From assembly GCA_029776065.1 (NCBI GenBank), contig JARVJP010000009.1, positions 640,514-704,513 of the forward strand: a stretch of DNA of 64,000 nucleotides, given 5' to 3'. This DNA comes from Nitrososphaeria archaeon. GTDB lineage: Archaea; Thermoproteota; Nitrososphaeria; JACIWG01. The translations under genes were made by a program, and so were the position numbers. The notes beneath the pieces were generated by a model. The model worked only from the letters and a program-made list of their open reading frames with translations. It searched no databases and had not been told where the DNA came from. Shown piece after piece: positions 5,963 to 45,070 of this stretch (position 1 is the first letter of the stretch; each line of letters opens with the position of its first letter).

Positions 5963-6907
5963 ATGCTATTACTGGATAAGACGGATGTTGACAGAAAGCT
6001 AAAGTTATTAAGACAAGAAATTACTGAAAGAGGAATAGTAGACGAATTAAGAGGGTGGAACTACGACAAACCCCCACTGCAGCCTTTATCCAGGTCAGTA
6101 AAATTTGGTGTCAGTGAACTTGCTGGAAGATACTGCGAAACCTTAAGAGACATTTATTTAAAGAGAGTTCTTGGTCTAAAACCTTCACTGAGTGTAAAGA
6201 TGATAAGAGGTACAGCTCTACATTGGGCAATCAAGGATGCAGTCTCAGATGTGAAGAAATTTATTTACAATAATCCAGATGCTACAGGCACAGAACTATT
6301 AAGAGATCTTTTATCAAAGGCTGAAAGAACGGGTTGGGCCGCAGCAAGTAAAGCTGAGTTAACAATAAACATTTTAGAGCAAAAAGACAAAGATCAGCTT
6401 GTAAAGGAATGTTCAAGTCTATATAGTTTTCTTATCATTCAAGCTGCTGCAAAATTCGATTACGCTTTATCAAAGTACCCTCACGCCGAACCAGACTCTA
6501 TAGTCAGTGTTGCCGTTCCCCCTGTAACAGAGAGAAAGGTTGATGGAGCGTTGGTAGGATTAGCAAGCGAATTGAGTGTAGATATGTATACCCCATATAA
6601 TGCGATAATAGACTTCAAGACCGGCGAGGTAAGGCATTTCCATCCGCTTACTGCAGCAGGCTATGCCTTAGCAATAGAAAGTGAAGAAAATATTCCAATA
6701 GATTTTGGTTTCGTAGTTTATTTGAAGTTTGAGAAAAAAACTCCATCATTTAACATAAGATATTTCGTCGTGGGAGACGAGCTTAGAAGAGAGTTCTTGG
6801 AGATAAGAGACGAAGCCTTCGAAATAGTTAATTCAGGAAGGGACCCTGGTATGCCAAGTAAATGCCAAGACTTCTGCCCATACTATCAGGTATGCCAAAA
6901 AGGTTGA
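5963..6907 (+). CDS. csa1: Csa1, Cas4-like adaptation protein of type I-A systems
   Basis: 314 residues. The N-terminal RGWNYDKPPLQPLSRSVKFGVSELAG is the segment that typifies the Csa1 family. A single Cys follows (GRYCETLRDIYLKR), and the C-terminus has C-Q-D-F-C-P-Y-Y-Q-V-C, together giving the four cysteines of a Cas4-type iron-sulfur cluster. Between them, ELSVDMYTPYNAIIDFKTGEVRHF carries the D-x-K nuclease core of the RecB-like fold. Csa1 acts with Cas4, Cas1 and Cas2 in spacer processing and PAM-side trimming. It is first in an operon with cas1, 71 nt upstream of it. Family membership is firm. Confidence 0.92.
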   Translation: MLLLDKTDVDRKLKLLRQEITERGIVDELRGWNYDKPPLQPLSRSVKFGVSELAGRYCETLRDIYLKRVLGLKPSLSVKMIRGTALHWAIKDAVSDVKKFIYNNPDATGTELLRDLLSKAERTGWAAASKAELTINILEQKDKDQLVKECSSLYSFLIIQAAAKFDYALSKYPHAEPDSIVSVAVPPVTERKVDGALVGLASELSVDMYTPYNAIIDFKTGEVRHFHPLTAAGYALAIESEENIPIDFGFVVYLKFEKKTPSFNIRYFVVGDELRREFLEIRDEAFEIVNSGRDPGMPSKCQDFCPYYQVCQKG

Positions 6908-6978
6908 CTCAACGAGGTCTTCAATCAACATTACCTTAAAATTTATTACACTCTATTCACAGATAAAATTCGTCTTAA

Positions 6979-7986
6979 ATGAGACTAGTAGTTAATGAAC
7001 CAGGATTGTTCGTCGGAACTAGAGGAGGTATGATAACAGTTTTTAAGAAAAGAGAAAAGGTTTTAGAAGTTTCAACACCTAAGATCGATCTTGTTATAGT
7101 TTTGACAAGAGGGGCATCATTCTCTTCAGCGTTAATAGGACTTCTCTTGAGACACCATATTCCACTGATCTTCTACTCTTCGTATGGTGCACCTTTAGCT
7201 GTATGCAAAGGATTTACAAGTGGATCTATTAAGCTCAGAAAATATCAGTATAAAGCTCAAGATAACCAAGTCGGAATAGAGTTAGCTAAAGCTTTCGCAA
7301 CAGGTAAGATGTTGAATCAGTACAGCTTACTTTATTCTATGGCAAAGAATAGAACCTCAAGTGACCCTCAACTTGCTAAAGAGCTTTATGAGAAGGCCAG
7401 AGAAATTAAGAGTGAATGTAACAAGATATCTGAGCTAGAAGGTGAAACTGTAAATAATATTAGAGCAAGTATTATGAGTATCGAAGCTGAGGCAGCCCAA
7501 CTCTATTGGGAGAGCGTCACAAAAGCCCTTTCTAAGGTAATAACCTTTCCTGGGAGAAGAAAGAGATTTGAGAATCCATCTGACCCAGTAAATATCGCCT
7601 TAAACTATCTTTATACAATATTAGCAGGAGAATGTTGGATGTATATTGAAATATCGGGTTTAGATCCGTTTTCCGGTTTCTTACACTCAGACAGTCCTAG
7701 AAGACCCGCTTTAGTAATGGATCTGATAGAAGAGTTTAGGCAACCCGTTGTCGATAGGGTTGTCTTCAAAGCTGTCTTTGAAAGAAAACTTGATAATGCA
7801 ATTGAGGGAAATAGACTCAAGAGAGAATCAAGGTTAATGCTCTATAAATTATATGCTGAAAGATTGGCTAAGAAGGTTACATTTTCAAATAGGAGTCTAC
7901 CCATACAAGATCACATACTCCTCCAAGCAAGAAGAATCGGAGAACATATTATGGAAAGAGAGGAATATACACCATTCATAGAGTGA
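6979..7986 (+). CDS. cas1: Cas1 integrase
   Basis: 335 residues, the usual archaeal Cas1 length. The N-terminal beta-rich domain (MRLVVNEPGLFVGTRGGMIT) is followed by the helical catalytic domain. This carries the metal-binding Glu in SIEAEAAQLYWESV, the His in PFSGFLHSD and the acidic pair in MDLIEEFRQPVVDRVVF. Cas1 with Cas2 integrates protospacers at the leader end of the array, which lies 1 kb downstream here. The cas2 frame overlaps its stop. All catalytic positions are intact, so adaptation should be active. Confidence 0.97.
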   Translation: MRLVVNEPGLFVGTRGGMITVFKKREKVLEVSTPKIDLVIVLTRGASFSSALIGLLLRHHIPLIFYSSYGAPLAVCKGFTSGSIKLRKYQYKAQDNQVGIELAKAFATGKMLNQYSLLYSMAKNRTSSDPQLAKELYEKAREIKSECNKISELEGETVNNIRASIMSIEAEAAQLYWESVTKALSKVITFPGRRKRFENPSDPVNIALNYLYTILAGECWMYIEISGLDPFSGFLHSDSPRRPALVMDLIEEFRQPVVDRVVFKAVFERKLDNAIEGNRLKRESRLMLYKLYAERLAKKVTFSNRSLPIQDHILLQARRIGEHIMEREEYTPFIE

Positions 7987-7991
7987 TCCAA

Positions 7992-8267
7992 ATGTTTACT
8001 TTAGTGATTTATGATATAACAGAGGACAACTTAAGAACAGAAGCCGCGCAGGCGTGTAAAACCTTTGGCTTAGTGAGGGTTCAGAAGAGCGCATTCTTAG
8101 GTCAGATTTCCAGCTCATTAAGAAAAGAACTCATCGCCACTTTAAGAAATATCGTTGAAGGAAGTAAGAATAACATACAAGTCTATATCATATGTAGACC
8201 AGATATTTCCCTCAAGGTAGAACTAGGAAGGCCATTCAAGGGAGAAGAAAGTGAAATGCTTGTCTGA
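7992..8267 (+). CDS. cas2: Cas2 adaptation protein
   Basis: 91 residues from the ATG at 7992; a GTG at 7983 overlapping the cas1 stop is also possible. MFTLVIYDITEDNLR is the first ferredoxin-fold strand with the conserved Asp, and LVRVQKSAFLGQISSS is the second-strand region. NNIQVYIICRPD matches the C-terminal strand. Cas2 dimers bridge two Cas1 dimers. The 3' end overlaps the cas4 start by 17 nt. Confidence 0.95.
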   Translation: MFTLVIYDITEDNLRTEAAQACKTFGLVRVQKSAFLGQISSSLRKELIATLRNIVEGSKNNIQVYIICRPDISLKVELGRPFKGEESEMLV

Positions 8268-8853
8268 GGAGGAACCTGAACTTATTCCAGCAAAGTGGAT
8301 AGAAATATACCACTATTGCCCAAAGATCATATACTATATGGGTGTACTTGGAGCCAGAGAAAGAGAAACAGAATACATGGTCGAAGGAAAAAGCGAACAA
8401 GAAAATGAAGAAGAAAGGGAAAGAAGACGTATAACCTTGTTAGCAAAAAGAAAGGAGAAAGTAATAAGACGATGGATGAACTTAAAGCTCTCTTCAGAAA
8501 AACTCGGCATAAAAGGGGAAGTAGACTTCATAGCCCAAACAGAAAACGGCACGAAAATAGTTGAAATAAAACACACAACCATAAATAAGCTTATGCCAGG
8601 CTATCTATATCAAACAGCATCATATGCAATGCTGGCAGAGGAAAATCTCAAGATACCAGTAAGAAGCATAATCATACATTACATAAAAAGTGGTAAAACC
8701 TTCGAAATCAACTTGACAGATGAAATAAGAAATCACGTTAAATGGGTAACAAGAAAGATAAAAGATATAATTGAAAAAGAAAAAATACCAAAAGTCCAAA
8801 AGATAAAAGAATGCAGAGGATGCGGATATTACAAGGTATGCAAAAAACTATAA
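8251..8853 (+). CDS. cas4: Cas4 RecB-like nuclease
   Basis: 200 residues. The N-terminal YHYCPKIIYYMG holds the first cluster Cys. The nuclease core is KGEVDFIAQTENGTKIVEIKHTT (D, then E-x-K). The C-terminus ends in C-R-G-C-G-Y-Y-K-V-C, supplying the other three Fe-S ligands. Cas4 trims prespacers and helps select the PAM. It starts at a GTG within cas2 and ends 116 nt before the first CRISPR repeat, making the array leader the operon's 3' flank. The system therefore has both Cas4 and the Cas4-like Csa1. Confidence 0.95.
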   Translation: MKCLSEEEPELIPAKWIEIYHYCPKIIYYMGVLGARERETEYMVEGKSEQENEEERERRRITLLAKRKEKVIRRWMNLKLSSEKLGIKGEVDFIAQTENGTKIVEIKHTTINKLMPGYLYQTASYAMLAEENLKIPVRSIIIHYIKSGKTFEINLTDEIRNHVKWVTRKIKDIIEKEKIPKVQKIKECRGCGYYKVCKKL

Positions 8854-8969: not shown

Positions 8970-9435
8970 GAATCTCATAAAGAGAATTGAAAGCCTTACT
9001 GTGTTCTGTTCGATGACATCTCCTGGGTTTTTGAATCTCATAAAGAGAATTGAAAGCATACTTTATGGAGGGAGTTCGATTATAACAGGAGAACATGAAT
9101 CTCATAAAGAGAATTGAAAGTTTAGGACAGAAAGCAACTTGGTGCTCTTCGCTATATAAGAATCTCATAAAGAGAATTGAAAGACACCCCACGCCCAAAT
9201 AAGGTAGTCATCATCATTCAACGGAATCTCATAAAGAGAATTGAAAGAAGGCTTTTTTTCCTTGCTCGGGGATGGTGTTCAAGTCAGAATCTCATAAAGA
9301 GAATTGAAAGGTTGGAATACCGTATGACTGCATATTCACCCGCCGAATCTCATAAAGAGAATTGAAAGACAGAGCCAAATATAGGGGCTATCATGTACCT
9401 AAAGATGACATGAATCTCATAAAGAGAATTGAAAG

Positions 9436-9475
9436 ATACGGTCAAATGGCCCCACCTCCCACTCTGGTGGGGTTG
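9436..9475 (+). repeat. Spacer 8, identical to spacer 17 (9992-10031)
   Basis: The 40-nt spacer beginning atacggtcaaatgg is repeated exactly after repeat 17. Internally it has a perfect 7-bp inverted repeat, ccccacc … ggtgggg, separated by 9 nt. The two copies are nine units apart. Confidence 0.95.
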
Positions 9476-9743
9476 GAATCTCATAAAGAGAATTGAAAGT
9501 GCTAAGGTGTATATGATTTCTCTCTCCTCTTCTTCTGAATCTCATAAAGAGAATTGAAAGTGTTTTTGAATTAGCGAAAACGCTTAAAAAAGAGAGAATC
9601 TCATAAAGAGAATTGAAAGAAAGACTAGTTCTTTGGCTTCTTCTTCTGTAAGCGTGTCGAATCTCATAAAGAGAATTGAAAGGCTATCTCTCGCTTCCTT
9701 TCATCTATTAGACCCTTTTGAATCTCATAAAGAGAATTGAAAG

Positions 9744-9841: not shown

Positions 9842-12800
9842 GAATCTCATAAAGAGAATTGAAAGACAAAATCGTTCACGGAGGCGACAAATTCGATAAC
9901 GTGGAATCTCATAAAGAGAATTGAAAGTATGCAAACATTGAGTGGGAAGTACGAGGTGTAATACCAAGAATCTCATAAAGAGAATTGAAAGATACGGTCA
10001 AATGGCCCCACCTCCCACTCTGGTGGGGTTGGAATCTCATAAAGAGAATTGAAAGTTTTCTATCCCGTGCGGGCGAATACCTACTATAAACACGAATCTC
10101 ATAAAGAGAATTGAAAGATAAAGTGAAGAACCCCCGCTTTTTGTTTCACATTTTGGAATCTCATAAAGAGAATTGAAAGTTGAGCAAAGCCTATGAACAA
10201 CAGCCTTACAAAATTTCCTGGAATCTCATAAAGAGAATTGAAAGTAATGAAAGGGTTTCGCCTCGTTCCAGAGGCTCTTCAGAATCTCATAAAGAGAATT
10301 GAAAGCATTTGCCGTATTCGTTTCTTCCGATGGCACCTGCCTTGAATCTCATAAAGAGAATTGAAAGAAATATACGGGCATAAAACCTCTATATTTTTTC
10401 GTTTTGGAATCTCATAAAGAGAATTGAAAGATTGGTATGGTAAAAGGATATATATGTTAAAACATAAAGAATCTCATAAAGAGAATTGAAAGGACATTTA
10501 TTCCACCCTTTCGAGTTCCCTAAGTTTCTGAATCTCATAAAGAGAATTGAAAGAAATGTAGTCGCCTCCGGCCTTGGTATGCTGAAGGTGCGTGGAATCT
10601 CATAAAGAGAATTGAAAGACGTTGGAGTATTTAGGATAGGCGGTAGCTCTCAAACCGAATCTCATAAAGAGAATTGAAAGTAGGCAGATTGATGCAGTAT
10701 TGCCCAAGCTTTGAAGGAATCTCATAAAGAGAATTGAAAGAGTGCTCGGATTACACCTGCAGATATAATTGTTGGGAATCTCATAAAGAGAATTGAAAGA
10801 GATTAACTCATATGGCTATAGAAATGATAAAGGATTAGAATCTCATAAAGAGAATTGAAAGAAATATATTAATGCAATAACTAAAGTAGACCAACTCAAA
10901 GAATCTCATAAAGAGAATTGAAAGCTATTTCATTCATAGCCTCTAATAACGACGTGTGGAAGCGAATCTCATAAAGAGAATTGAAAGATAGCATAGCTTA
11001 CAACGTATGGGTATTAGAAGTTCATTGAATCTCATAAAGAGAATTGAAAGCATAATAGAAGGGGGTTTAACCGGGCGGGCTTTAGAAGAATCTCATAAAG
11101 AGAATTGAAAGAATAGATATTCCACCAGGTAGCGGTTGGTATCAGTTTCGAATCTCATAAAGAGAATTGAAAGGATATAACTAAAGGCACTAAAAAGGTG
11201 TACAGTATTAGAATCTCATAAAGAGAATTGAAAGAGCACATCTTGATCATAAACAACTTTATCAAAATTCCAGAATCTCATAAAGAGAATTGAAAGTGAA
11301 ACAGGGGGGCTGTAGGCTATATAAGCGAATTGAAGAATCTCATAAAGAGAATTGAAAGAAAGTTCCCATGCTCCTTTCACAACGCCCAGACATACCGAAT
11401 CTCATAAAGAGAATTGAAAGTTTTACCTAAACCTCTCCTTTTTGAAAATTTTCTTCTCGGAATCTCATAAAGAGAATTGAAAGTCAATTTCCGCCTTGAG
11501 TTTCTTACTGAAATCGTGAATCTCATAAAGAGAATTGAAAGTCGTGTAAATTCATCAGAATCCACTTCTTTTTTATCAAGGAATCTCATAAAGAGAATTG
11601 AAAGAACAGTACTCGCCAACCTTCCCAGAAGGCAGCCCAGCTGAATCTCATAAAGAGAATTGAAAGTCACAACCACCCAAGCCAAGCAAGTAACCCGCTT
11701 AACCGAATCTCATAAAGAGAATTGAAAGTTTCTTCGCATAGTTCGATAAGCCTTTGTTTGTATCTGGAATCTCATAAAGAGAATTGAAAGACCTTCCAGG
11801 CTGGCTCAGTAGTTATTATAGCAGGTATGAATCTCATAAAGAGAATTGAAAGTTTTATTCACCTCTATACGCTTTTGCCTTAAATACTAAAGAATCTCAT
11901 AAAGAGAATTGAAAGAATGGTGGAAGTTTTCTAAGTTCCTCTTCTGTCTGTGGAAGGAATCTCATAAAGAGAATTGAAAGTAACTGTGACTATTTTAGCC
12001 ATTATACTCCACTCCTCCGAATCTCATAAAGAGAATTGAAAGGCATCTACAACCGAGCCCTAAGCGACGCAGAAATACAGGCGAATCTCATAAAGAGAAT
12101 TGAAAGAAGATAAACCACAACCCAATAGTAGGGCACACGGAAGAGAATCTCATAAAGAGAATTGAAAGTTGAAACTTAATCCAAAAACGCTGACGTAATA
12201 TTTTGAATCTCATAAAGAGAATTGAAAGTTTAGTTCCTGTAGGGAGGACGAGCCTGAAAACCAAAGAATCTCATAAAGAGAATTGAAAGAACTCAAAGAA
12301 ATAGCGCAAGACATAACAGACTTAACTAGAATCTCATAAAGAGAATTGAAAGGTATTATTTATTATATAGTTAGTGTGAAGCATATCTAGGAATCTCATA
12401 AAGAGAATTGAAAGTTGCCATACGATATAAGGTTAGTTGACATACTTTTATCTGGAATCTCATAAAGAGAATTGAAAGCATTTTCCTTATCGCACGATTA
12501 TATAATTTCATTGTTTATGAATCTCATAAAGAGAATTGAAAGTCGGTGTCTTCGACTCTGTTACGCTTTTAGCAGAACATGAATCTCATAAAGAGAATTG
12601 AAAGTATATCGGCTCTGCATTATTATTTATAGTCAATTCAAAGAATCTCATAAAGAGAATTGAAAGATAATATGTTTTCTCTCCGACATGATTTTGTTAA
12701 CAACCCCGAATCTCATAAAGAGAATTGAAAGACTAATGCATTTTAGTGACACAAACCTATCCTTAGGGGGAATCTCATAAAGAGAATTGAAAGACGAAAA

Positions 12801-13339: not shown

Positions 13340-14749
13340 TTATTTTTCGGGGCTTTCAATCCAAGACTTAATCATCTTTATCGTTTCTTCTTTCTCATTA
13401 TAGCGTAAGAAGATTCTATCTTTTTCCTTACTGACTTGCACAAGTTCTCTTAGAAAGCCACTATGAGCGAAAAAGTTTCTTTTCTGTTCGCTTATCTTTT
13501 TTTCTAAATGCACCTTTTCTTTTTGGTTCTCAGTAAAGAGTTCCTTCAGATTCTTTTCCTCTCCTTTGAGCAATTTATAGGACAACTCTTTGATCTCACC
13601 TAAATCTCTTAATAAGAATCTTTTGTTAAGACCAAGGGTTTGATACGTCTCAGGAAATACCTTCTGAATTGCTGTTATGTCTACTTTACTGTTCTCGTTA
13701 GAAGGCAAAATTTTCTCTTCCCAAAATTTTCTGAGACTTGATAATAGATCAAGTGATAGCATCACATTCACGGCAAGGCTTCTATTGACCTTTAAGTATT
13801 CTTCTTTTAGAAGACTATTTTCTATGGAAAGCTTCCTTTTATCTTCAAAATACTTTAAGAGGAAACTAAGGCATTCGAAACCATCACTTGGATTCTCTCC
13901 TTCTAAATTAATTATCCTTTTATCAAAGAAAGCCAATGGAGTATTATATTTTAATATATTAAAAGCAAATTTTGCATCATTAACCATTTTCTTGATAACG
14001 GTGTTCTTCTCGTTGAGTTCCATTCCCCAATTCTTTTTACAACCTTCTGTAACCTTGGTGTCTAAGAAGTTGATTGCAGAAAAGTTTACATCCTTTAATG
14101 GAAAGTCAAAAAATACCCTAACATCGTATTTGTAGAAGTTGACTTCGTATTTCTTCACACCAGGAATTATTGGAGGAATAAATATTAGTTGGGCATTTGG
14201 AAATGGTTGAGCTTGAATAAGTCTTCTAAGCTTGAACCGAATAATCAAAATTCTTAATGTATCCATTAATGCGGTTGTGTAAATGTTATGTCCAGTTGAA
14301 ATGTCTCCTATCAACTTAATATTCCCATCATTGTTTTCGTCAATTATTTTAGAAAGTTCTAGAAGCATGTAAGATACTAGGTTGTCGGCATGATTTTCAA
14401 AAGCTATTGAGAAATCTTTTTCTTTATATTTTCCGACAGATTGTAGCACAACAATGTCTTCTAGGTTGATAGGTTCGCCAACAAGTTCATCGATTCTTTC
14501 CTTAACTTGCGCCTTAAATTTAACTCTATCTCTTAAGAGAGATAGATGATCAAAGCCATCAAGTTTAACGACAAGGCTCTCTGGGACTAGAAAGATTATT
14601 TTGTAGTTGTACCTTTCTTCTTGGCATTTTACGTAGAAATCTTTTACCGCCTTTGAAGAAAGGGAAGAAGAATGTTCCTCTCCTTCAATAACAAAATCTA
14701 CTTGTGGGTAGTCAAATCTACCGACAACCTGAAAGATGTATCCTCGCAT
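13340..14749 (-). CDS. csx1: Csx1: CARF-HEPN ribonuclease activated by cyclic oligoadenylate
   Basis: 469 residues from the ATG at 14749; a TTG 9 nt upstream extends the frame. The N-terminal CARF domain has a Rossmann-like start (MRGYIFQVVGRFDY) and the conserved loop KLIGDISTGHNIYTTALMDTLR near residues 150-170. The C-terminal HEPN domain has the RX4-6H ribonuclease motif R-N-F-F-A-H (Arg424, His429). On binding a cyclic oligoadenylate made by Cas10, Csx1 degrades RNA non-specifically. A TATA box (ttatatataa) is centred about 26 nt upstream of the ATG, supporting a leaderless start. It lies downstream of csx3 on the minus strand, back-to-back with the Cmr operon. Confidence 0.9.
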   Translation of the reverse strand: MRGYIFQVVGRFDYPQVDFVIEGEEHSSSLSSKAVKDFYVKCQEERYNYKIIFLVPESLVVKLDGFDHLSLLRDRVKFKAQVKERIDELVGEPINLEDIVVLQSVGKYKEKDFSIAFENHADNLVSYMLLELSKIIDENNDGNIKLIGDISTGHNIYTTALMDTLRILIIRFKLRRLIQAQPFPNAQLIFIPPIIPGVKKYEVNFYKYDVRVFFDFPLKDVNFSAINFLDTKVTEGCKKNWGMELNEKNTVIKKMVNDAKFAFNILKYNTPLAFFDKRIINLEGENPSDGFECLSFLLKYFEDKRKLSIENSLLKEEYLKVNRSLAVNVMLSLDLLSSLRKFWEEKILPSNENSKVDITAIQKVFPETYQTLGLNKRFLLRDLGEIKELSYKLLKGEEKNLKELFTENQKEKVHLEKKISEQKRNFFAHSGFLRELVQVSKEKDRIFLRYNEKEETIKMIKSWIESPEK

Positions 14750-14770
14750 TGCAGACAATATAGTAAAAAT

Positions 14771-14781
14771 TGTTATATATA
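14771..14781 (-). promoter_or_regulatory. TATA box of csx1
   Basis: The minus-strand sequence attatatataa lies about 26 nt upstream of the ATG at 14749, the spacing of an archaeal leaderless promoter. It sits at the very end of csx3, so csx1 can be transcribed separately from csx3. Confidence 0.5.
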
Positions 14782-14782
14782 A

Positions 14783-15070
14783 TTAAACTTTTATTAAATC
14801 ACCAACTTCATGCTCATCACAATGCGATTCAACAACAACTGCCCCACCAAGTCTCGGATCGTAGGCTGCAATAAACTTTGATGGGTGATAAAAGTGGATA
14901 AGATAACCATAAAACCATATTGGTCCACGCCCAGACAATATCACACCTTTTCTAAAATCAACTTTAGGTGGAACCAACTTCTTCAAAAAGTCTGGAGACA
15001 AGAATTCATCAAAAGTAAAAGATACCACCGTAAAATTTTCTTTCTCCTCTACGCTAAAGAGCCTTCTCAA
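14783..15070 (-). CDS. csx3: Csx3 / Crn3-family cOA-degrading ring nuclease
   Basis: 95 residues, the size of single-domain Csx3. The core GVILSGRGPIWFYGYLIHFY and the following HPSKFIAAYDPRLGGAVVVESH (residues 42-83) are the family's most conserved stretch. His59 and Asp71 sit where the family has catalytic or cOA-contacting residues; that mapping is inferred by pattern. Characterised Csx3 from Archaeoglobus degrades cyclic tetra-adenylate, ending the Csx1 response. The start is a TTG at 15070 with a TATA-like gtatttaag about 21-25 nt upstream, consistent with a leaderless mRNA. It precedes csx1 by 33 nt. Activator and terminator of the signal are thus neighbours. Confidence 0.88.
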   Translation of the reverse strand: MRRLFSVEEKENFTVVSFTFDEFLSPDFLKKLVPPKVDFRKGVILSGRGPIWFYGYLIHFYHPSKFIAAYDPRLGGAVVVESHCDEHEVGDLIKV

Positions 15071-15143
15071 TTATGTTCGACTACTTCTTAAATACATGAT
15101 TTTAAATAGTTTAAAGACTTAAGCTAGTACCAAAATAGAAGAA

Positions 15144-15198
15144 TTTCAATTTGAATCTTTTTGCTCGGAGAGCAAAAGATAAGGATGTTAAGATTCAA
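15144..15198. promoter_or_regulatory. Nested inverted repeats between csx3 and the Cmr operon
   Basis: An outer repeat ttgaatctt (15151-15159) pairs with aagattcaa (15190-15198). Inside it lies a tight hairpin of ttttgctc and gagcaaaa separated by gga. A further palindrome, ttcaa-t-ttgaa, overlaps the left edge. The element sits between divergent operons, upstream of both starts. It could be a regulatory site, a small structured RNA or a relic of an insertion. Confidence 0.45.
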
Positions 15199-15367
15199 TT
15201 TTCTAAGGCATTTGTCTTATAGGAACTTTTAGAAAGTATGCCCGTTATGCTACTAAGGGGATTTAACTAATTTGCTACACTCTCATGTCGGAGCCTACCA
15301 TAAAGTTAATCTTGGTTAAGATCGAGCTTGTGATTGAATGACTTATAGTGGTCCATGAAACTCAGAA

Positions 15368-15379
15368 AAGTATAAAAGT
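15368..15379 (+). promoter_or_regulatory. TATA box of the Cmr operon
   Basis: aaagtataaaag is the best TATA match in the 350-nt gap and would place transcription start near 15395-15400. That leaves a 25-65 nt leader before the candidate TTG (15423) or ATG (15465) of the first gene. Confidence 0.5.
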
Positions 15380-15464
15380 CTCTCTGCATCAAACATAATG
15401 GAGTTTAGAGAACCTTGATTTTTTGGGGTTATCTCACATTTTTGCAGAAGACTACTATCGTCAA

Positions 15465-16247
15465 ATGGAGGAGAATGCTTTGCATAAGGTGTCTATTATA
15501 GCCACAATTGGAACGAGCCCTCCTGTGATTACAGAGTTCCTACAGTATGTCAAAGAGGTTTTGGATCAAAGAGTTACCGACCTAACGATCATAACCACAA
15601 AGGAACCACTTGTGCTCGAAGGACTAGAACTGGTAAAAGCTGGTGTAGCTGACCGCTACCCCATGGTCCACCTTCACGTTGTGGGACTGCCTTTTGATGA
15701 CGTGGATTCAGAGGAGAGGAACACCGAGTTTATTGGCATTGCTGCACGGATTCTAAGGGATCAGAAGGAGAAGTATGGTATAGAGGTTGTCCACCTATGT
15801 GTGGCAGGGGGAAGGAAGGAGGTATGCATTATGCTCTCTCTGCTAGCTCAGTTCTACAACGTTAATGGCGTATATCATATCGTCATGCCTGATGTGAAGA
15901 CCTTCAACCAGCAGCTGGAGCTGATAAGGTATGAGACCAGAGAGCTTGCAAACGCAGAGGACAAGCTTGCCTATTACAGGCAGAAGAAGGAGCTTTTAGA
16001 ACCTGTCCTGTTTCCTCAACCGTCTACCTATAATGTTATTAAGATCCCTGTCATTCCTTACCCTATGCATACTCTTATCGGAATGAAGCAGGTGTTAAAG
16101 CAGCGAAAGTTCCCGTTAAAGTCGATTGATACGGATATTGCCTCTCAACTTAGGGACTTTGGATACATAAGGATCATACGAAACTATGCCTATACCTCCC
16201 CAGACGGCGAACGTCTGCTACGGTTTATAGGGTCGGTGGCGAATTGA
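15465..16247 (+). CDS. CARF-domain protein, NE0113/Csm6-like family, putative ring nuclease or effector
   Basis: 260 residues from the ATG at 15465; a TTG at 15423 adds 14. The opening VSIIATIGTSPPVITEFLQYV and the later HLCVAGGRKEVCIMLSLLAQ are the two diagnostic loops of the NE0113 family (PF09623/TIGR02584), a CARF-like fold that binds cyclic oligoadenylate. The last ~60 residues (SIDTDIASQLRDFGYIRII) look like a winged helix. There is no HEPN R-x4-6-H motif, so it is more likely a ring nuclease or a cOA-responsive regulator than an RNase. It is the first gene of the Cmr operon, with its TGA overlapping the cmr4 ATG. Confidence 0.8.
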   Translation: MEENALHKVSIIATIGTSPPVITEFLQYVKEVLDQRVTDLTIITTKEPLVLEGLELVKAGVADRYPMVHLHVVGLPFDDVDSEERNTEFIGIAARILRDQKEKYGIEVVHLCVAGGRKEVCIMLSLLAQFYNVNGVYHIVMPDVKTFNQQLELIRYETRELANAEDKLAYYRQKKELLEPVLFPQPSTYNVIKIPVIPYPMHTLIGMKQVLKQRKFPLKSIDTDIASQLRDFGYIRIIRNYAYTSPDGERLLRFIGSVAN

Positions 16248-17218
16248 TGCCATCTCTTCGATTAGGATATTATAGCCAAGCTTCCGTGGTTCTGATACAG
16301 GCGATATCTCCTCTGCATGTTGGCATGGGGAGAGGTCTAGGTGTCGTTGATCTGCCTGTGCAGCGTGATGCTCTTGGTTTTCCAACGATCTTCGCAAGCA
16401 GCTTGAAGGGGCCCTTAAGAGCTACCTTCGATAGGCTTGTGGGTAAGAAAGATTGCACGAATATCATCTTTGGCTCTGGTGATGGAAGAGATGAAGATTA
16501 TTATGCTGGTGCCTTTAACCCTCTTGACGCCAAACTTCTACTTCTGCCAGTCAGGAGTTTAATTGGCGTATATACGCTGACTACTTCGCCAATCATGTTG
16601 AATAACTTCATGACATACCTAGAGGCTTCAACACATGCGGGCGTAAGTGAGCAGAGTATAAAGGATCTCCTAGAAGCCTTAAGAGAGACAATAGGGGAGG
16701 CAAAGACTCTTGGCAAAGATGAAGTTCTTGTAAGTAAGGAGGCAAAAGAGAAGATCTGCCTTCCCATAAATGGGAAAGACACTCTAATCCTAGCTGATGA
16801 GTTCCCACTGTCCTTAAGAGAGTCGCCCACCGTCGGAGAATTAGCCAAAAAGCTTGAACCTGAGGAAGGTTGGAGGCTTGCTGTCGTTCACGATGATTTC
16901 ATGGTTAACTCCTTGCTTGAGAGGAGTTTGCTCAGGCAGACCCGTGCAGCTTTGGAAACTGGAACTAAGAAGGTGAAGCGAGGAGCCCTTTGGACAGAAG
17001 AGGATATACCTCCTCAAACAATTCTTTACACGGTATTCTTTTACTCTGACCCCAGGACAAAGACGGATACTTGCCAAGAGCTGCGTTCAAAGTCTAATGC
17101 GACTGGAGTGAAAGAACTCTTCGAGAACAAAATCCTTTCTAACGGTCACGGCTACATGATCTTCGGCGGCCACGAGACGGTCGGCAGAGGTGTTGCAAAA
17201 CTAAGGAAGGTGGGATAG
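16247..17218 (+). CDS. cmr4: Cmr4 (Cas7-group RAMP), type III-B backbone
   Basis: 323 residues from the ATG at 16247, which overlaps the upstream TGA. PLHVGMGRGLGVVDLPVQRD and FPTIFASSLKGPLRA near the start are typical Cmr4 signatures (RAMP strand plus glycine-rich turn). AFNPLDAKLLLLPVRSLIGVYTL follows, and the C-terminal GHGYMIFGGHETVGRGVAKL is the family's G-rich loop. Cmr4 forms the helical backbone along the crRNA and cuts target RNA every 6 nt. The expected catalytic acidic residue lies in the first third, but I could not pin it down without an alignment. Confidence 0.93.
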   Translation: MPSLRLGYYSQASVVLIQAISPLHVGMGRGLGVVDLPVQRDALGFPTIFASSLKGPLRATFDRLVGKKDCTNIIFGSGDGRDEDYYAGAFNPLDAKLLLLPVRSLIGVYTLTTSPIMLNNFMTYLEASTHAGVSEQSIKDLLEALRETIGEAKTLGKDEVLVSKEAKEKICLPINGKDTLILADEFPLSLRESPTVGELAKKLEPEEGWRLAVVHDDFMVNSLLERSLLRQTRAALETGTKKVKRGALWTEEDIPPQTILYTVFFYSDPRTKTDTCQELRSKSNATGVKELFENKILSNGHGYMIFGGHETVGRGVAKLRKVG

Positions 17219-17230
17219 AAACGTCTGAGG

Positions 17231-17697
17231 ATGGAGGGTCCCCGCCAAGGACGACCTACATAGCGATCAGCTGTATTGAAGCAGTCAGAGAACTTGATGG
17301 CAAGATAGAGAAATTCGGTCAATTCTATCGAGCTAGGGCCCGTAGGATGGCCTCCATGATATATGAGACGGGTCTTCTCAGCACTATAAGTTACCTCTAC
17401 GCCAAGGCGACCAAGGATGTTTATGATAAGTTTGTTAGCGCTGATGTAAAAGGAGGAGTAAAATTCGAGCTCCTTAAGAATGAGGAAAAGGAAAATGTCG
17501 CACACGCTGCCTATCTATATCAGGTCCTCAGTTACATTTCCGAGAAGCTAGGTCGAGCTGGGCAGGAAAGAGAACCTATCGACTTTGTTAAGAAGTTGGC
17601 CGAAAATCCTATAGAACTTGGGGTAGCCGAATCCCTCCTCAAACCTTTCCTGATAGAGTTGAAACACTTAGCAGAAGCAATATGGGTAGAAGAGTGA
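17231..17697 (+). CDS. cmr5: Cmr5 small subunit; 5' end needs one missing base or a non-ATG start
   Basis: The uninterrupted frame from the ATG at 17347 encodes 116 residues. Cmr5-like sequence extends upstream in the same frame (YIAISCIEAVRELDGKIEKFGQFYRARARRM) with no ATG, GTG or TTG. An ATG at 17231 opens a frame reading MEGP that would join this sequence if the C4 run at 17240-17243 had one more C, giving MEGPPPRTTYIAISCIE and ~156 residues. A start at an ATA or ATT codon is the alternative. Cmr5 is the helical small subunit stacking beside Cmr4 in III-B complexes. The stop overlaps the cmr1 ATG. Confidence 0.8.
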
Positions 17698-19166
17698 TGG
17701 AAATAGACCTTGACCAGATTAAAGCAGTGGCAAAAGAGCTAACCGAACAATGCCTTGTAGCGGAGGTCAAGCTAGTTAATATAACTCACGCCAGACTTGG
17801 AGGATACAATGCTAGAACCTATTCAAACGAGCTGCAACTTGCCGAAACCCTCAGAACTCAGAGCATCAAGGGTGTTTGGCGTTGGTGGATAAGAGTGATA
17901 CTTTCAGGAGCAGCGTGGGAAATGGGCATAAACGATGCTGGTCCCATAATCGAGCTTACCAGAAAGATTATGGGTTCCACTGAGTCAGCATCAACCTTAA
18001 TTCTGAAACTTGCAGCTACTCCAGCAGAGACAGAAGCGGTCTTACCTAGAAGAGCTATCAATATGTTATCCAACCTTAAGGGTAAATATCCAAGCGAAGA
18101 TATCAAAAAGATATTTTCCGAATGCGGTTTGCAAATACCTCAAAAACTTAATCGTAGAGGCTTTATTAACACAATACTTCCACCCAGACTAGGGCTCCTT
18201 GTAATGGACGAAGAATTGTCAGTAAAGGAGTTAGATGGAATGCTTCAGATGTATAAGGCAGGATCCCTGGAAGCATGTGTCCAAATTTACGCAAGAACTG
18301 GGACTGGGATTGCTAAGGATGAGATTAATGTGGCAATAGGTGCTCTTCTCCTCGCATTGATTCTCCAAGGCGTAGGTGCAATAACCAGAAGGGGTTTCGG
18401 GCACTTCCAAATAACATGTCGAGAAGGCTCGCAATATCCTTTTATTAAGGCCTACGTGGAGTATGTAAAACAGCTAAATGAAGCGGTTGACGCAAGTACA
18501 ACAAGAGATGCACTCAATAAACTCATACATGAAGCAATTGGAAGTGCAAAGCGCCTTCTCGAAAAGATTACAGTTTCCCATAAGGTAACGGAGACGATAC
18601 CTCCGCGTCCTTCCCTTTCCTTTGAGCGCTCAGCATTCAAGCTAGAAATTGTAAAGATCGATGTAGGAAGTGGAAGAGATAGTCCTGAGTGGAACTTACT
18701 GAGATGTTTAGGTTTTAAGAAGAAGGACGAAGCACAACTCAAACTCCTTAGAAAACTAGGACAAGCAACCTTAAAGATAGAGTGGAAGAGGAATAAGGGA
18801 CTAGACATCTTTGCTAGTGGTAGGGATCTCCAAACATGGATTCTTGGCCTACCCCGCTCCCATTTAGCTATACACTCAGGCGAAAAGGATACAGGTTATT
18901 TCTTACCCCCAAAATCGCCTAGAGAGCGACTTGAAGTAGGGAGAAGATCCAGTTCGATTTCTTTTGCTCCACTTAAGCAGATTAGTGACTATGAGTGGTT
19001 AGTAGCTGCCTATGGCTTCCTTTCAAGCGACTGGCCAGAGAGAATAGAGTGGTTGAGTGGGACAAGGGGAAAGGTAAGTGTGTCCTTAAAAGTTGAAGTT
19101 CGGAAACGCTTTGATGAATCGTTCCAGCAAGTCGTCGACTACCTACATAGGGGAGGAAGAGCTTGA
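17697..19166 (+). CDS. cmr1: Cmr1 (Cas7-group RAMP)
   Basis: 489 residues from the ATG at 17697 (TGATG overlap with cmr5); the frame is open from 17682. RTQSIKGVWRWWIRVILSGA is the Cmr1 hallmark, and VGAITRRGFGHFQI is its glycine-rich loop. At 489 residues it is longer than many Cmr1 proteins and appears to hold two RAMP-like halves. Cmr1 caps the head of the III-B filament near the 3' end of crRNA. It is joined end-to-end to cmr6. Confidence 0.92.
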   Translation: MEIDLDQIKAVAKELTEQCLVAEVKLVNITHARLGGYNARTYSNELQLAETLRTQSIKGVWRWWIRVILSGAAWEMGINDAGPIIELTRKIMGSTESASTLILKLAATPAETEAVLPRRAINMLSNLKGKYPSEDIKKIFSECGLQIPQKLNRRGFINTILPPRLGLLVMDEELSVKELDGMLQMYKAGSLEACVQIYARTGTGIAKDEINVAIGALLLALILQGVGAITRRGFGHFQITCREGSQYPFIKAYVEYVKQLNEAVDASTTRDALNKLIHEAIGSAKRLLEKITVSHKVTETIPPRPSLSFERSAFKLEIVKIDVGSGRDSPEWNLLRCLGFKKKDEAQLKLLRKLGQATLKIEWKRNKGLDIFASGRDLQTWILGLPRSHLAIHSGEKDTGYFLPPKSPRERLEVGRRSSSISFAPLKQISDYEWLVAAYGFLSSDWPERIEWLSGTRGKVSVSLKVEVRKRFDESFQQVVDYLHRGGRA

Positions 19167-20003
19167 TTGTCTACCGCTGAAAATCCCTCTCTGACAGCTC
19201 ACTGGATCGAGAAGGTTTACGAGCAGCTCATAGTCTCCCAATGGATGGGTAATACGCCGAATCTCTTCAGCTTAGCTAGCATATCATCATTTACGATCAA
19301 CACTGCAACAGAAAAGGAAAATGAGAAGCGTTCGGTCTTAGAAATGCTCACTAAGTATAGCAAAGAAGTTAGTCTAGCCAAGGTTAACAGGCATTTGGAT
19401 GAGACTAAAGCGGCCTATTCTTCTCTAGGTTTCCCTATTCTCGACCTAGAAGCGAGACTTACCTATAGGGCGGTGGTGGGAGCCTCATCCACCTTCGGAC
19501 AGACCGCATTTGAGGTAGGATTGTCCTTCGATCCTCTCCTAAACGTCCCCTATATCCCTGGCTCAAGCATCAAAGGTGCCGTTAAAGCAGCAAGCAGACT
19601 GGGGAAAGTAATTCCTGACGATAAGATGCTAAGGGAGCTCTTTGGTAACGGCTTAGTTGGGCGCTTAGACTTCTCGGATGCTTATCCTGTAGAGGGGGGC
19701 GTGAAGGGGTATATCCTCATCCCTGATGTGCTGACACCACACTACAGCAAAGGAGGCGAAGATGTTCTAGAAGAAGACAAAATTATGCCAACCCCTATCC
19801 CATTTCTATCCATAGCTCCAACCACTAGGTTCAGATTCCTTATAGCAGATAGGGCCCAGAAACTCGACCAGCCATTCTTGGAGACGTTACTCAAAGCCGT
19901 CGCCGTCGCCTTCTCATTAGGGGTTGGTGCGAAGACAGCCCTAGGCTACGGAGCCTTCGAGCTCGTAAAGGCTTTCGTCGAAGAAGGTGGGCGAAATGCC
20001 TAG
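19167..20003 (+). CDS. cmr6: Cmr6 (Cas7-group RAMP)
   Basis: 278 residues starting at a TTG immediately after the cmr1 TGA. LSFDPLLNVPYIPGSSIKGAVKA is the signature RAMP loop of Cmr6, and VAFSLGVGAKTALGYGAFEL is the C-terminal G-rich motif. Cmr6 joins Cmr1 at the filament head. The end overlaps cas10 by 8 nt. Confidence 0.93.
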   Translation: MSTAENPSLTAHWIEKVYEQLIVSQWMGNTPNLFSLASISSFTINTATEKENEKRSVLEMLTKYSKEVSLAKVNRHLDETKAAYSSLGFPILDLEARLTYRAVVGASSTFGQTAFEVGLSFDPLLNVPYIPGSSIKGAVKAASRLGKVIPDDKMLRELFGNGLVGRLDFSDAYPVEGGVKGYILIPDVLTPHYSKGGEDVLEEDKIMPTPIPFLSIAPTTRFRFLIADRAQKLDQPFLETLLKAVAVAFSLGVGAKTALGYGAFELVKAFVEEGGRNA

Positions 20004-40421: not shown

Positions 40422-41216
40422 CTAAGCTAACATTTCCCTTATCTTGGACAGTGTTGCTACGAATGTACCATCCATTAAGTAGAGTTGTGTCTTATCCTCT
40501 AATAGGTACCTTATCATCGGGCTCGGCTTCTTCTCCCCTAACCTGTTAACCGCTATTCCTCCAACAATCCTGTTAAAAGCCGGTAATACAACCAACATGA
40601 GATCCTTGTCTAACGTTTTGGTATTAAGACCGTATTTTCTTTCCTCGGCATATCTTTTCCTATCTAGCGTGCCTATTAGCCATATTGGTTCAATCAGCCT
40701 TAGGCCAGCGTCATCCCTAAGCTCTACCCTGTAGTGCCCGTGCCCTGTTATGATGTATGATGATCTTACGCTCTCCGATTCAGGCCAAGCATTCCCATGA
40801 AGTAATGTAATCAAACTGCTTTTGCATTTTATCGTGAAACCCCTTGAACCAACCACTCTAACATTATGAGGTATAAGGTTTCTTATTCCACCGTCATGGT
40901 TCCCCAGAGTTACAACCATGTCTTCGAACCAAGTCTGGAGCCTGTTGAAGAAGGTGGTCACCTGGAACCAGTCTGCCGGAGAGGCCCATGCGACCTTGTG
41001 TTTGACATCTCCAAGTATGTACAACATTCTAGCTCCATGCTTTTTTCCCAGGTCGATGAGCCGGTCTGCGATGATCGATGCCCTCTGTGGGAGACTTATC
41101 CCCTTCTTCGCGAGCTCGAGCTCGTAGCCTAGGTGTATATCTGAAACCACTAACGCCTTTCTGTCACAATTCAGCAGTACTGCTGAGTCCTCGAAGAGGA
41201 TCTTTAAGTTCTGCAT
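40422..41216 (-). CDS. Calcineurin-like metallophosphoesterase
   Basis: 264 residues from the ATG at 41216, which follows the upstream TAA by one base; a TTG at 41225 is also possible. Metal-binding motifs appear in order: VVSDIHLGYE (D-x-H), LYILGDVKH (G-D), VTLGNHDGG (G-N-H-D) and ITGHGHY (G-H-x-H). The family is the archaeal YmdB/MJ0037-like phosphoesterases, often near Lhr helicase genes and thought to act in nucleic-acid repair. Translational coupling with the next gene upstream suggests a two-gene unit. Confidence 0.85.
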   Translation of the reverse strand: MQNLKILFEDSAVLLNCDRKALVVSDIHLGYELELAKKGISLPQRASIIADRLIDLGKKHGARMLYILGDVKHKVAWASPADWFQVTTFFNRLQTWFEDMVVTLGNHDGGIRNLIPHNVRVVGSRGFTIKCKSSLITLLHGNAWPESESVRSSYIITGHGHYRVELRDDAGLRLIEPIWLIGTLDRKRYAEERKYGLNTKTLDKDLMLVVLPAFNRIVGGIAVNRLGEKKPSPMIRYLLEDKTQLYLMDGTFVATLSKIREMLA

Positions 41217-41217
41217 C

Positions 41218-41907
41218 TTATTCAAGGCTCAGAAGCGGGAACACCTCGGCTCTCACAAAGGATGAAAGGTCAGAGGCCTCTATCTTGGTGAAGGAGACGA
41301 CTATCCCGTTCCTAGTGAACCCGACGACATACCCGAACTTCTTGGATCTGACAACAACGTACCATAGCTTCCCATGAGTCAGGTACTCTGAGTAGAGTGA
41401 TGTATCGGCTAGGCTAGACCCGTACAGGGAGAGCTTGCTCACGTTGGGGATGTTGACGTCATCGAAGAATAGGACCTTCGCGTCCTCCATATGCTCCTCG
41501 TGATACCTTCTAATCGTTTCTGGGTCGATCCTCGCTTCAAGTATCTTCCCACTTACAACAAACAGTATCTTGCTCAGCTGGTTCGCCACGTTATTAGCCC
41601 TCTCCTTCTTCTCGAAGACTACTAGGATCAGTTTCCCCTTGAAGACGTAAAACTCGAAGGCTGCTTCAAATGTTCTAGGTATGAGTCTGAGCTCCCCCTT
41701 GCTTGGAATATGTAAGGGTACATCGAAGCTAAAGGTTCCAGTTAAGGACTCAGCCCTTGCTACAAGATCCTTAACCTCGTTCACCAGCTCGATTCTCTGA
41801 TTACCCTCGAAGTACTCGCTTGAGACCTTGAATCCTTTTAACTTCAAAGCGGTTTCATCTAAGGACATGAAATCTTCTGCGACAAAGATCTTACAGGCGA
41901 GAACCAT
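41218..41907 (-). CDS. Conserved archaeal protein, unknown function
   Basis: 229 residues with mixed alpha/beta composition and no membrane segment or recognised motif. Notable segments are FKVSSEYFEGNQRIELVNEV and VLFFDDVNIPNVSKLSLYGSS. It is coupled to the phosphoesterase gene, starting the two-gene operon. No function is offered. Confidence 0.7.
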   Translation of the reverse strand: MVLACKIFVAEDFMSLDETALKLKGFKVSSEYFEGNQRIELVNEVKDLVARAESLTGTFSFDVPLHIPSKGELRLIPRTFEAAFEFYVFKGKLILVVFEKKERANNVANQLSKILFVVSGKILEARIDPETIRRYHEEHMEDAKVLFFDDVNIPNVSKLSLYGSSLADTSLYSEYLTHGKLWYVVVRSKKFGYVVGFTRNGIVVSFTKIEASDLSSFVRAEVFPLLSLE

Positions 41908-42567
41908 AACTCTTTTCCTGAGGCAGCGTATTATTAAACTTTAGCCGCTTAGAATTAAGTTAGGCATCTAAACGGTGTTGTAAATAGGAAACCTTAAGAT
42001 TGTTGGTATGCAATTATTAAAAAGGAGTGCGTAGTATGAATCTAAAGTGTGGTCTATTTACAGGTTCCCCTTTAGGAATAATCTCATCAAATCAAATTTT
42101 AGTGTCTTTAATAAATGTCGAAGTCTTCGTCTTTGAAGTCAAATTAGGCGGTTCACGGGCCGTAACTTACTTGCTTACGAATAGTGGATCGTACTTCCCA
42201 TGTTGTATTAAGAAGGGCTAGACTGGGAACCATACTATGTTTAACATATCACCTATATAATACTCTTGAAGTTGTGATAACCAATATACAATTGTTTGGT
42301 GAATCTATACCCTCACACATTTTCATTATCGGCATTATAATTTCTGTTATAGCTTTGCTCTTACAGAGGGCCAAATCGTAACCAAAGTACTCTTAAAGCA
42401 TCACCACATACCAGATCAGTGGAAGCGCCTAAAGTGTCATGATCGATATAATTAGCCAAGTGATTTGCTGCCTTTGAATGTGCATACGCTTGCCTCTAAT
42501 TCTAGATATGGTATGTAGCAATAAGAGAAGACTATAAATGGATAATTTATCAATCCCTGTGATTAGA
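41908..42567. other. Gap with weak open frames upstream of the staygreen gene
   Basis: Two overlapping plus-strand frames occur: 42027-42221 (ATG at 42036) and 42184-42381. The second ends in a plausible membrane helix (IFIIGIIISVIALLLQ). They might be halves of a frameshifted small membrane protein, but there is no family support. The TATA-like actataaatgg at about 42532-42542 lies 26-36 nt upstream of the staygreen ATG. Confidence 0.35.
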
Positions 42568-42969
42568 ATGGCTCGCCTAAATCCTGAAAAGCTGAAAGTC
42601 AAGTATTCTTAGGTTTCTAGGTCTGGTGCTCTAACTATTCCTCGCCGTTATACGTTAACGCATTCTGATTTAAAAGGTGAGATGTTCTTGACGACCGGTT
42701 CTGACTACAATAACAAGGAAATATCGAAATTTTATACACGCCTTATGCGGGATGAGGTTTTGGCGGAATGGCAGATTCCCTCTGGTGACCCCTCCCTTCA
42801 TGTGTATTGCCACGTCAGCGGTGGACTTACCTTTGGGAGAGCGAGCTGGCGTGACTCGATCTTTAGAAAAGAACTACCACTAGCCCTTGAAGTCTTCCGA
42901 TATGGTGACAGAGCGCTCTACGAAACTAATCCAAGGCTGGATGAAGCTACAGTTTGGATACACTTCTAA
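42568..42969 (+). pseudogene. Staygreen-family protein interrupted by one in-frame TAG
   Basis: From the ATG at 42568 the frame encodes MARLNPEKLKVKYS, then a TAG at 42610-42612. It continues in the same frame with VSRSGALTIPRRYTLTHSD, FYTRLMRDEVLAEWQ, LHVYCHVSGGLTFGRASWRDSIFRKELPLAL and YGDRALYETNPRLDEA. These are the conserved blocks of the Staygreen family (PF12638), known in plants as a chlorophyll magnesium dechelatase and found with unknown role in some archaea and bacteria. Apart from the TAG the gene is full length (134 codons) and has a TATA box. An internal ATG at 42682 would make a 95-residue form. It could be a nonsense mutation, sequence error or readthrough. Confidence 0.8.
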
Positions 42970-43180
42970 TCCTCAAACCCCGGGTATAAAAGGTCTGAAA
43001 AATACGGTGTTATGGGTAATTTCAAGATATAGCATCTTAAGGGAATAACCGTTCTAGACCGTTGTCTAAGGCTCTTCCTTAAGATAGCTTGAACCTTTTA
43101 TGTCTATTAAAGGCCTGTCCAAATGATATTGCACAATCTCTGACGTAACTACGTCCATCGGAAATAAGAGTTAGACTCCT

Positions 43181-45070
43181 TTATTTCCACAGTTCGCCAG
43201 CGACATCATCCATACCTAGCTGTAACAACTTTTCTTTCGTGGGTTTTCCGGTGCGGGGGTCCCACCCTCTTAGTTTTAAGTATTCGGGTCCGGTGACATC
43301 TAGCTTCACTACCTCATTATTTGCAAGCCTCTGGGGTTCTTTAAGTAGTCTCTCTGGTAATCCATCATCAAAGATTGTGGCGCCGTGTTTTGAATTGAAT
43401 GCGCGTTTAAGGTTATAGACCCTCTCGCCTGCCATTAGTGCCTCACTTAGTGATATTTGTCGTCCGGTTATAGCATTGAAAGCTTTGATCAATCTCTCTT
43501 GAGTCCCGTACCTGAATCCTGCAAATATACACCATCCTGCGATGGTCAGGAACGTCCAGAAATCCTCCATTTTGATGGCTAAATCTGCTTTCCATTCTGT
43601 TGAACCCTTAGCACCGTACTGCTTATTAATTCCTATTTCAGGCACGTTAATGCCGAATAGCTCTGTCATTACTGCATTTCCCTCCATGTGATCCGGGCCA
43701 ACAGGACAGTAGGCGTAGTGGGGTCCTCCACTTTGAAATGCGCGAGGGTCGTGGCCTGGTAACTCTAATCCCTTAACTTGCATCGCATATTTATCGCTAT
43801 TTCTACCTATCATCATAGAAGCTCTCTTTGAGCCCTCGGCGAGCAAGTTGCCGACGCCGTCCCTTCTTGCTATCCTATGTACTAGTTCAATAGCAGCATC
43901 TGAGTTCCCGAATTTCAGATCTAAGCCATCTAGTTCCTCTTTGGACAGAATTCCCCGCTCATAACATTCCATGGCGAAGGAGATGGTTACCCCAGTAGAA
44001 ATGGTATCTAGCCCATATCGATTACATAGATCATTAATCAGGTTTATTGCATAGATGTCGTCGATACCACAGTTAGGGCCAACCATAGCTAGAGTTTCGT
44101 ATTCTACCCCTTCTACATTTTCTTCTTTCAATTGATATTTCCCTTCCCCTTTGTTCACAACCCTTCTGCATGCAACGGCACACATATAGCATGCATTGTT
44201 TTTTAATAGTATTTTGCCTGTACCTTGAGGCCAAGCCAATTTGTTTATTCGCTCCTCATCATACTCGCCAAATATGTCACCTGCAAAGTTGTTGTAGGGA
44301 ACGTCACCATTGATGAAATAGCTTACATATCCGGATACTGTACCCCCCTCTCTATATCTTTTGACCAAAGGAGAAACACTATAGTTGTCAAGTACTTCAC
44401 TCATCACTGCATTGAGTGCTTTTGAGTCGGCTACTGGGACTTCCTTTGTTCCCCTTATCGCAACTGCTTTTAGTTTTTTAAATCCCATTACAGCGCCTAC
44501 ACCACATCTTGCAGCAGCTCTGCCAGCATCATCGTGCATTATTGAAGCAAATCTAACAAGGTTTTCTCCTGCCTGTCCTATGCAAGACACTTGCATTTTT
44601 TTATCACCTAGATCACTTCGTATTGCTCTATCAGCATCTCTTGCATCCATGCCCCAGTAACTAGATGCCTCTTTAAGTTCGATCGAATCATCGCATATTA
44701 ATAGCATTGATGGTTTTGCTGATACCCCAGAGAAGATTACCATGTCGTAGCCCGCACGCTTGAGTTCTACACCAAAGAAGCCTCCTGCATTCGCATCCCC
44801 AAAGAGACCAGTTAACGGAGATTTTGTTACCACCGAATGTCTGCCCGCGGTTTGGATAGGTGTTCCTGTCACTGGGCCTGTCGTGAAGATCAAAAGGTTT
44901 GATGGGTCATATGCGTCTGCTAATATTGGGACTTCGTCGTAGAGTATCTTACCAGCTACACCGACAGAACCGATAAAGTCAACTGCTGTCTTCTTGTCAA
45001 GGGCTTCGATAAATATTTTTTTAGTTGAAAGATTGACTCTAACGACCTTTTGCATGTAACCATATAGCAT
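43181..45070 (-). CDS. Aldehyde:ferredoxin oxidoreductase (tungsten-type), copy 1
   Basis: 629 residues. MQKVVRVNLSTKKIFIEAL and FTTGPVTGTPIQTAGRHSVVTKSP are the tungstopterin-binding N-terminal domain. The 4Fe-4S cluster is held by C-Y-M-C-A-V-A-C (CX2CX3C) plus a distal Cys in TIAGWCIFAGF. LPGHDPRAFQSGGPHYAYCPVGPDH is also family-typical. AORs oxidise aldehydes to acids and reduce ferredoxin, or work in reverse. It is divergent from the opine-dehydrogenase-like gene. Confidence 0.93.
   Translation of the reverse strand: MLYGYMQKVVRVNLSTKKIFIEALDKKTAVDFIGSVGVAGKILYDEVPILADAYDPSNLLIFTTGPVTGTPIQTAGRHSVVTKSPLTGLFGDANAGGFFGVELKRAGYDMVIFSGVSAKPSMLLICDDSIELKEASSYWGMDARDADRAIRSDLGDKKMQVSCIGQAGENLVRFASIMHDDAGRAAARCGVGAVMGFKKLKAVAIRGTKEVPVADSKALNAVMSEVLDNYSVSPLVKRYREGGTVSGYVSYFINGDVPYNNFAGDIFGEYDEERINKLAWPQGTGKILLKNNACYMCAVACRRVVNKGEGKYQLKEENVEGVEYETLAMVGPNCGIDDIYAINLINDLCNRYGLDTISTGVTISFAMECYERGILSKEELDGLDLKFGNSDAAIELVHRIARRDGVGNLLAEGSKRASMMIGRNSDKYAMQVKGLELPGHDPRAFQSGGPHYAYCPVGPDHMEGNAVMTELFGINVPEIGINKQYGAKGSTEWKADLAIKMEDFWTFLTIAGWCIFAGFRYGTQERLIKAFNAITGRQISLSEALMAGERVYNLKRAFNSKHGATIFDDGLPERLLKEPQRLANNEVVKLDVTGPEYLKLRGWDPRTGKPTKEKLLQLGMDDVAGELWK

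Follow-up and report, generated by a model that had tools for sequence, protein, structure and literature searches.

A staygreen-family (PF12638) frame of 154 codons and a terminal TAG lies on the plus strand at positions 42568–43032 of the window, by which we mean the whole stretch of 64,000 nucleotides analysed. The frame contains two in-frame stops and is best read as a pseudogene. The first stop, a TAG at codon 15 (42610–42612), falls in a variable loop of the staygreen family, and the second, a TAA at codon 134 (42967–42969), had previously been taken for the end of the gene. The TAA is followed by a conserved C-terminal tail, SSNPGYKRSEKYGVMGNFKI (42970–43029), and by a terminator TAG in the same frame (43030–43032). 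An internal ATG at codon 39 opens a frame of 95 amino acids (42682–42969, same strand), which lacks H32, D34 and the tail. A TATA-like sequence on the plus strand, CTATAAAT (42532–42539), was found by eye ≈30 bases upstream of the ATG at 42568.

The neighbouring genes are all on the minus strand. They encode a 629-aa aldehyde ferredoxin oxidoreductase with AFOR_N and AFOR_C domains (43181–45070) and, on the other side, a 229-aa protein without a Pfam match (41218–41907), which adjoins a 267-aa calcineurin-like phosphoesterase (40422–41225). Of the four remaining genomes in the family, three keep the genes for the phosphoesterase and the 229-aa protein together as a pair, and in these three, neither a staygreen gene nor the oxidoreductase occurs in the 5.1 to 5.5 kb on that side of the pair. 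In the fourth genome (G002), the 229-aa protein is 39% identical, and no phosphoesterase match was found within the 3.3 kb examined. The stretch upstream of the staygreen frame (41908–42567) holds no ORF of 100 aa. A second decayed gene in this stretch was ruled out, since none of its six read-through frames gave a Pfam match.

Elsewhere, the window contains a large CRISPR array (8970 to about 12920) in which a 24-nt repeat, GAATCTCATAAAGAGAATTGAAAG, recurs every ≈62 bases, with 65 to 68 copies depending on whether family D1 or D2 is counted. Some of the spacers are duplicated; positions 9409–9500 and 9965–10056 are 99% alike. Beside the array (5963–8853 and 13340–20003) are a Cas1 gene flanked by two Cas4-like genes and a type III-B cluster with Cmr4, a weaker match to Cmr1, and Cmr6, accompanied by CARF and CARF-HEPN (Csx1-like) proteins. 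The Cmr1-like and Cmr6-like ORFs (17682–20003) are in one frame with a single TGA between them, and are probably two neighbouring genes. There is a Csx3 match within one ORF-poor stretch of the window, and positions 3661–4995 strongly match the PADLOC candidate family PDC-S01 (E = 8.9e-108).

Extent of the staygreen frame

The original prediction described a staygreen homologue that starts at the ATG at 42568, is interrupted only by the TAG at 42610–42612, might restart at the ATG at 42682, and ends with the TAA at 42967–42969. We found all four codons at these positions, and the homology was borne out by a match of the frame up to the TAA to PF12638 (138.5 bits, E = 1.9e-40), which exceeds the curated cut-off of 27 bits. 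The amber codon is thus real, but it is not the only interruption, as the TAA is a second premature stop inside the domain.

When the frame was read through both stops, the PF12638 score rose from 138.5 to 156.7 bits. A genome-wide search with this profile gave one match, covering profile positions 2–146 of 147, with one TAG and one TAA inside it. With a profile made from 14 homologues, the score was 201.3 bits up to the TAA compared to 217.8 bits through it. The homologues in this alignment comprise eight archaeal sequences, four from the search of the Chloroflexota phylum and two from Bacillales plasmids. L060 and L002 represent one gene, which was counted once, and the N-terminal part of L002 is masked; L075 (G882), at 18.7 bits under the cut-off, is outside the alignment and its column counts. 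The same continuation was seen against AbSGR-h, a Mg-dechelatase homologue from Anaerolineae bacterium SM23_63 (PDB 7Y5Y, staygreen domain protein, 161 residues): up to the TAA, the frame aligned to residues 2–133 with 149.5 bits, whereas the frame read through both stops aligned without gaps to residues 2–154 with 165.4 bits.

The tail alone scored 10.7 bits with the 14-homologue profile, whereas 1000 shuffled versions of it reached 6.7 at most. We also scored 25578 stretches of twenty codons, taken at every fifth codon in the six frames of the window; the best unrelated stretch reached 8.9 bits, and the tail in a shifted register 8.4. By itself, the tail is a modest match; it is the in-frame position that makes it convincing. 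Moreover, all 14 aligned homologues continue beyond the TAA column for 19 residues or more. The tail matches to the Pfam profile, the 14-homologue profile and 7Y5Y therefore indicate a gene that is 154 codons long with two premature stops, occupying 42568–43032 and not 42568–42969. The TAA as a natural end is ruled out by the profile match, the lengths of the homologues and the continuation of the 7Y5Y alignment beyond it. There is accordingly no uninterrupted reading frame over the staygreen domain, which is broken at codons 15 and 134.

Catalytic residues and function

The active site of AbSGR-h, whose structure is 7Y5Y, is proposed to consist of H32, D34 and D62 (PMC11006732). The D34N and D62N mutants were soluble and inactive (PMC8531759, sections 3.3 and 3.4), R26D, Y28A and D114N were inactive and had reduced solubility, and H32A and T29A showed weak activity (PMC8531759). 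All seven residues are found at identical numbers in the archaeal frame when it is read through, which would give it a complete Mg-dechelatase residue set. In contrast to AbSGR-h, which is intact and active in vitro (PMC8531759), the archaeal frame carries two nonsense codons.

We considered the possibility that the locus now encodes a short protein with a new, non-dechelatase role, starting internally, either at the ATG at codon 39 or at a rare ATT start at codon 24, and ending at the TAA. A frame of 95 codons is indeed open from the ATG at 42682, and a start at the ATT would keep R26 to D34. However, the restart at 42682, one of the options in the original prediction, would yield 95 residues without R26, Y28, T29, H32 and D34, residues at which mutation abolished or weakened AbSGR-h activity (PMC8531759). 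From either start, the protein would lack the invariant K8, L9 and V11, as well as the invariant G147 at the other end. Both outer flanks of the frame are nevertheless still conserved, which would be needless in a settled short gene. Such a protein is thus very improbable.

In plants, the staygreen gene serves to break down chlorophyll, and the activity expected of a Mg-dechelatase is removal of Mg from chlorophyll a. The function of staygreen proteins in archaea was approached through the rest of the genome and through the neighbours of homologous genes. The genome has no match to PF02514, the CobN/BchH-type chelatase family (CobN-Mg_chel), which is matched in 5 of 14 control genomes; thus, PF02514 gives no hint that the cell itself makes a chlorophyll substrate. 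Among the best 25 of 137 families, none was shared by more than four of the 74 proteins that neighbour staygreen genes at 11 intact loci and the partly masked L002, and the families matched by four were general acetyltransferases. An ICMT-like methyltransferase adjoins the staygreen gene in two genomes of the Chloroflexota phylum (L087 and L088); neither this nor a comparable neighbour was found beside the archaeal staygreen genes. Assignment of a pathway from gene neighbourhood was therefore ruled out, as the neighbours of intact archaeal staygreen genes point to none. Three archaeal staygreen sequences are included in an alignment in PMC8531759, which, as far as titles and the openings of abstracts show, is the only literature we found on staygreen in archaea.

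Decoding of the two stops

Pyrrolysine decoding had been put forward as one explanation for the TAG. In amber genes that encode pyrrolysine, such as those for methylamine methyltransferases, homology continues in frame before and after a TAG, and the staygreen frame resembles them in this respect. It differs from them in that a TAA also breaks the frame. The TAG is not the sole in-frame stop, because the TAA at 42967 lies inside the domain, and pyrrolysine cannot account for an ochre codon. Furthermore, the genome search for pyl genes, which covered PylS and PylD in a genome that is 95.5% complete, gave a best score of 30.1 bits for PylS_Cterm against a cut-off of 178.15, and of 21.9 bits for PylD against a cut-off of 150.05. 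Matches of this kind are common in the controls: 13 of the 14 control genomes match PylS_Cterm and 10 match PylD, with one over the cut-off in each case. We rejected pyrrolysine decoding on the ochre stop and the low PylS and PylD scores.

TAG is also an ordinary stop codon in the window. The 51 non-overlapping ORFs that reach 100 aa, two of them certainly spurious because they fall within the CRISPR array, end in TAG in 17 cases, in TAA in 22 and in TGA in 12; for the 40 that reach 200 aa, the counts are 13, 18 and 9, respectively. A reassignment of amber was ruled out on these counts.

A different way in which the gene could still be expressed is readthrough of both stops, by near-cognate decoding or an unusual tRNA, yielding the full-length protein at a low level. 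The key residues and 23 of the 24 invariant columns (see below) are preserved in frame around each of the two stops, before and after it, a degree of preservation that is seldom seen in simulations of neutral decay and that would fit with such a product. However, two different codons, amber and ochre, would both have to be read, although both are ordinary stops here and PylS and PylD fall below their cut-offs. The genome has 45 matches to the tRNA family, 44 of them over the gathering score, and no CTA or TTA suppressor anticodon was called among these by ARAGORN with introns allowed, in a set that is incomplete, lacking Asp, His and Tyr and leaving two matches uncalled. (The uncalled matches, L047 and L048, on C3 and C2 of this genome, perhaps contain several introns or insertions.) Nor was there an unusually stable RNA fold in the region of the TAG, the one stop for which folding was assessed (42590–42710, z = −0.17). 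Expression by readthrough of both stops is therefore a highly unlikely explanation for the locus.

Distribution and probable loss of the gene

Staygreen genes are sporadic among the relatives of this archaeon. The only one of 61 related genomes with a match was the source genome itself, and none of the four further genomes from its family, which are 77 to 95% complete, had one. A sample of the phylum gave two matches in 398 genomes, the source genome included. In the class to which the second of these belongs, 9 of 256 genomes matched, eight over the cut-off and one under it, as did 4 of 301 genomes sampled from the phylum to which the Chloroflexota hit belongs. The simplest reading of this sporadic distribution, and of the lack of staygreen in the genomes of the same family, is horizontal gain; from its distribution, the gene was probably acquired horizontally by the source lineage. 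The homologue tree, in which 2 of 12 inner branches were well supported, did not resolve the origin and the donor. By identity, the closest genes are archaeal (59, 57 and 56% for those on L070, L068 and L071), followed by the Chloroflexota gene on L002 (55% over its unmasked part). The staygreen genes of the same archaeal phylum, from eight genomes of one class, share its conserved blocks and are 48 to 59% identical to the frame described here in six cases, and 44 and 46% in the other two. They differ from it in that none of the eight matches, all of which are over the cut-off, contains a stop. More broadly, no stop was found inside the staygreen match in any of 13 other genomes, one of which is under the cut-off and one of which, owing to masked bases, was matched over part of its length. 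The inactivating changes are thus absent from the relatives, as would be expected of a pseudogene, and of the options in the original prediction, a recent nonsense mutation is the one that gains support, with two nonsense codons in place of one.

The frame has otherwise decayed very little. The 14 homologues share 24 invariant columns, 23 of which are kept here, the exception being L39M; when the two Bacillales rows were left out, 31 of 32 were kept. The frame carries no frameshift. The relaxed constraint that would be expected of a pseudogene is therefore not apparent. We simulated neutral decay from the present sequence, with flat or log-uniform priors on the number of mutations, on which the resulting percentages depend. 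With point mutations only, and two new stops, at most one of the 24 columns was hit in 3–4% of cases under the flat prior and 11% under the log-uniform prior; when 10% indels were included and the absence of a frameshift was required, these values fell to 0.5–0.7% and 3.2%, respectively. Long neutral decay is unlikely. The slight decay and the simulations together suggest that the loss is young, or else point to an assembly error or unusual readthrough.

If one or both stops were artefacts of assembly or base calling, or came from a minority strain, the gene would be intact in the cell. This would account for the near-perfect conservation, the unshifted frame and the outcome of the neutral simulations. 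With its 16 contigs and an estimated contamination of 3.2%, the genome is probably a metagenome assembly. On the other hand, the gene sits in a 775-kb contig, and two separate stops would have had to arise within one gene of 465 bases. When seven stretches of the window that are poor in ORFs were scanned (42 frames), we noticed no further Pfam domain with an interruption, although this is a weak control, because the CRISPR array makes up most of two of these stretches, shorter gaps were outside the scan, and Csx3 and ParE were matched in one frame each with the stops in those matches unchecked. Random error is made less likely by the two stops in such a short gene and, to the extent that the control allows, by the lack of other interrupted domains; we consider an artefact unlikely, while giving it more weight than the short protein or readthrough.

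The most plausible explanation, to which we assign a probability of about 0.8, is that a staygreen gene of the Mg-dechelatase type, probably acquired horizontally, was recently inactivated by two nonsense codons and is now a pseudogene. The gene would have arrived in the lineage by horizontal transfer, and the TAG at codon 15 and the TAA at codon 134 would have inactivated it recently. Translation from the ATG at 42568 would stop after 14 residues, with neither stop being read through, and the product of the internal ATG would lack the catalytic H32 and D34. Thus, it is most likely that no working staygreen protein is made.

There is a very small chance that this is instead an archaeal enzyme gene in which an amber and an ochre codon are maintained under purifying selection, both being read through at a low level without pyrrolysine machinery. 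Proof of double readthrough would make the locus far more important, since the frame near both stops is almost undamaged. Read as a recently inactivated pseudogene, it does away with an attractive candidate for archaeal amber recoding, and would provide a small example of the gain and loss of staygreen genes among archaea.
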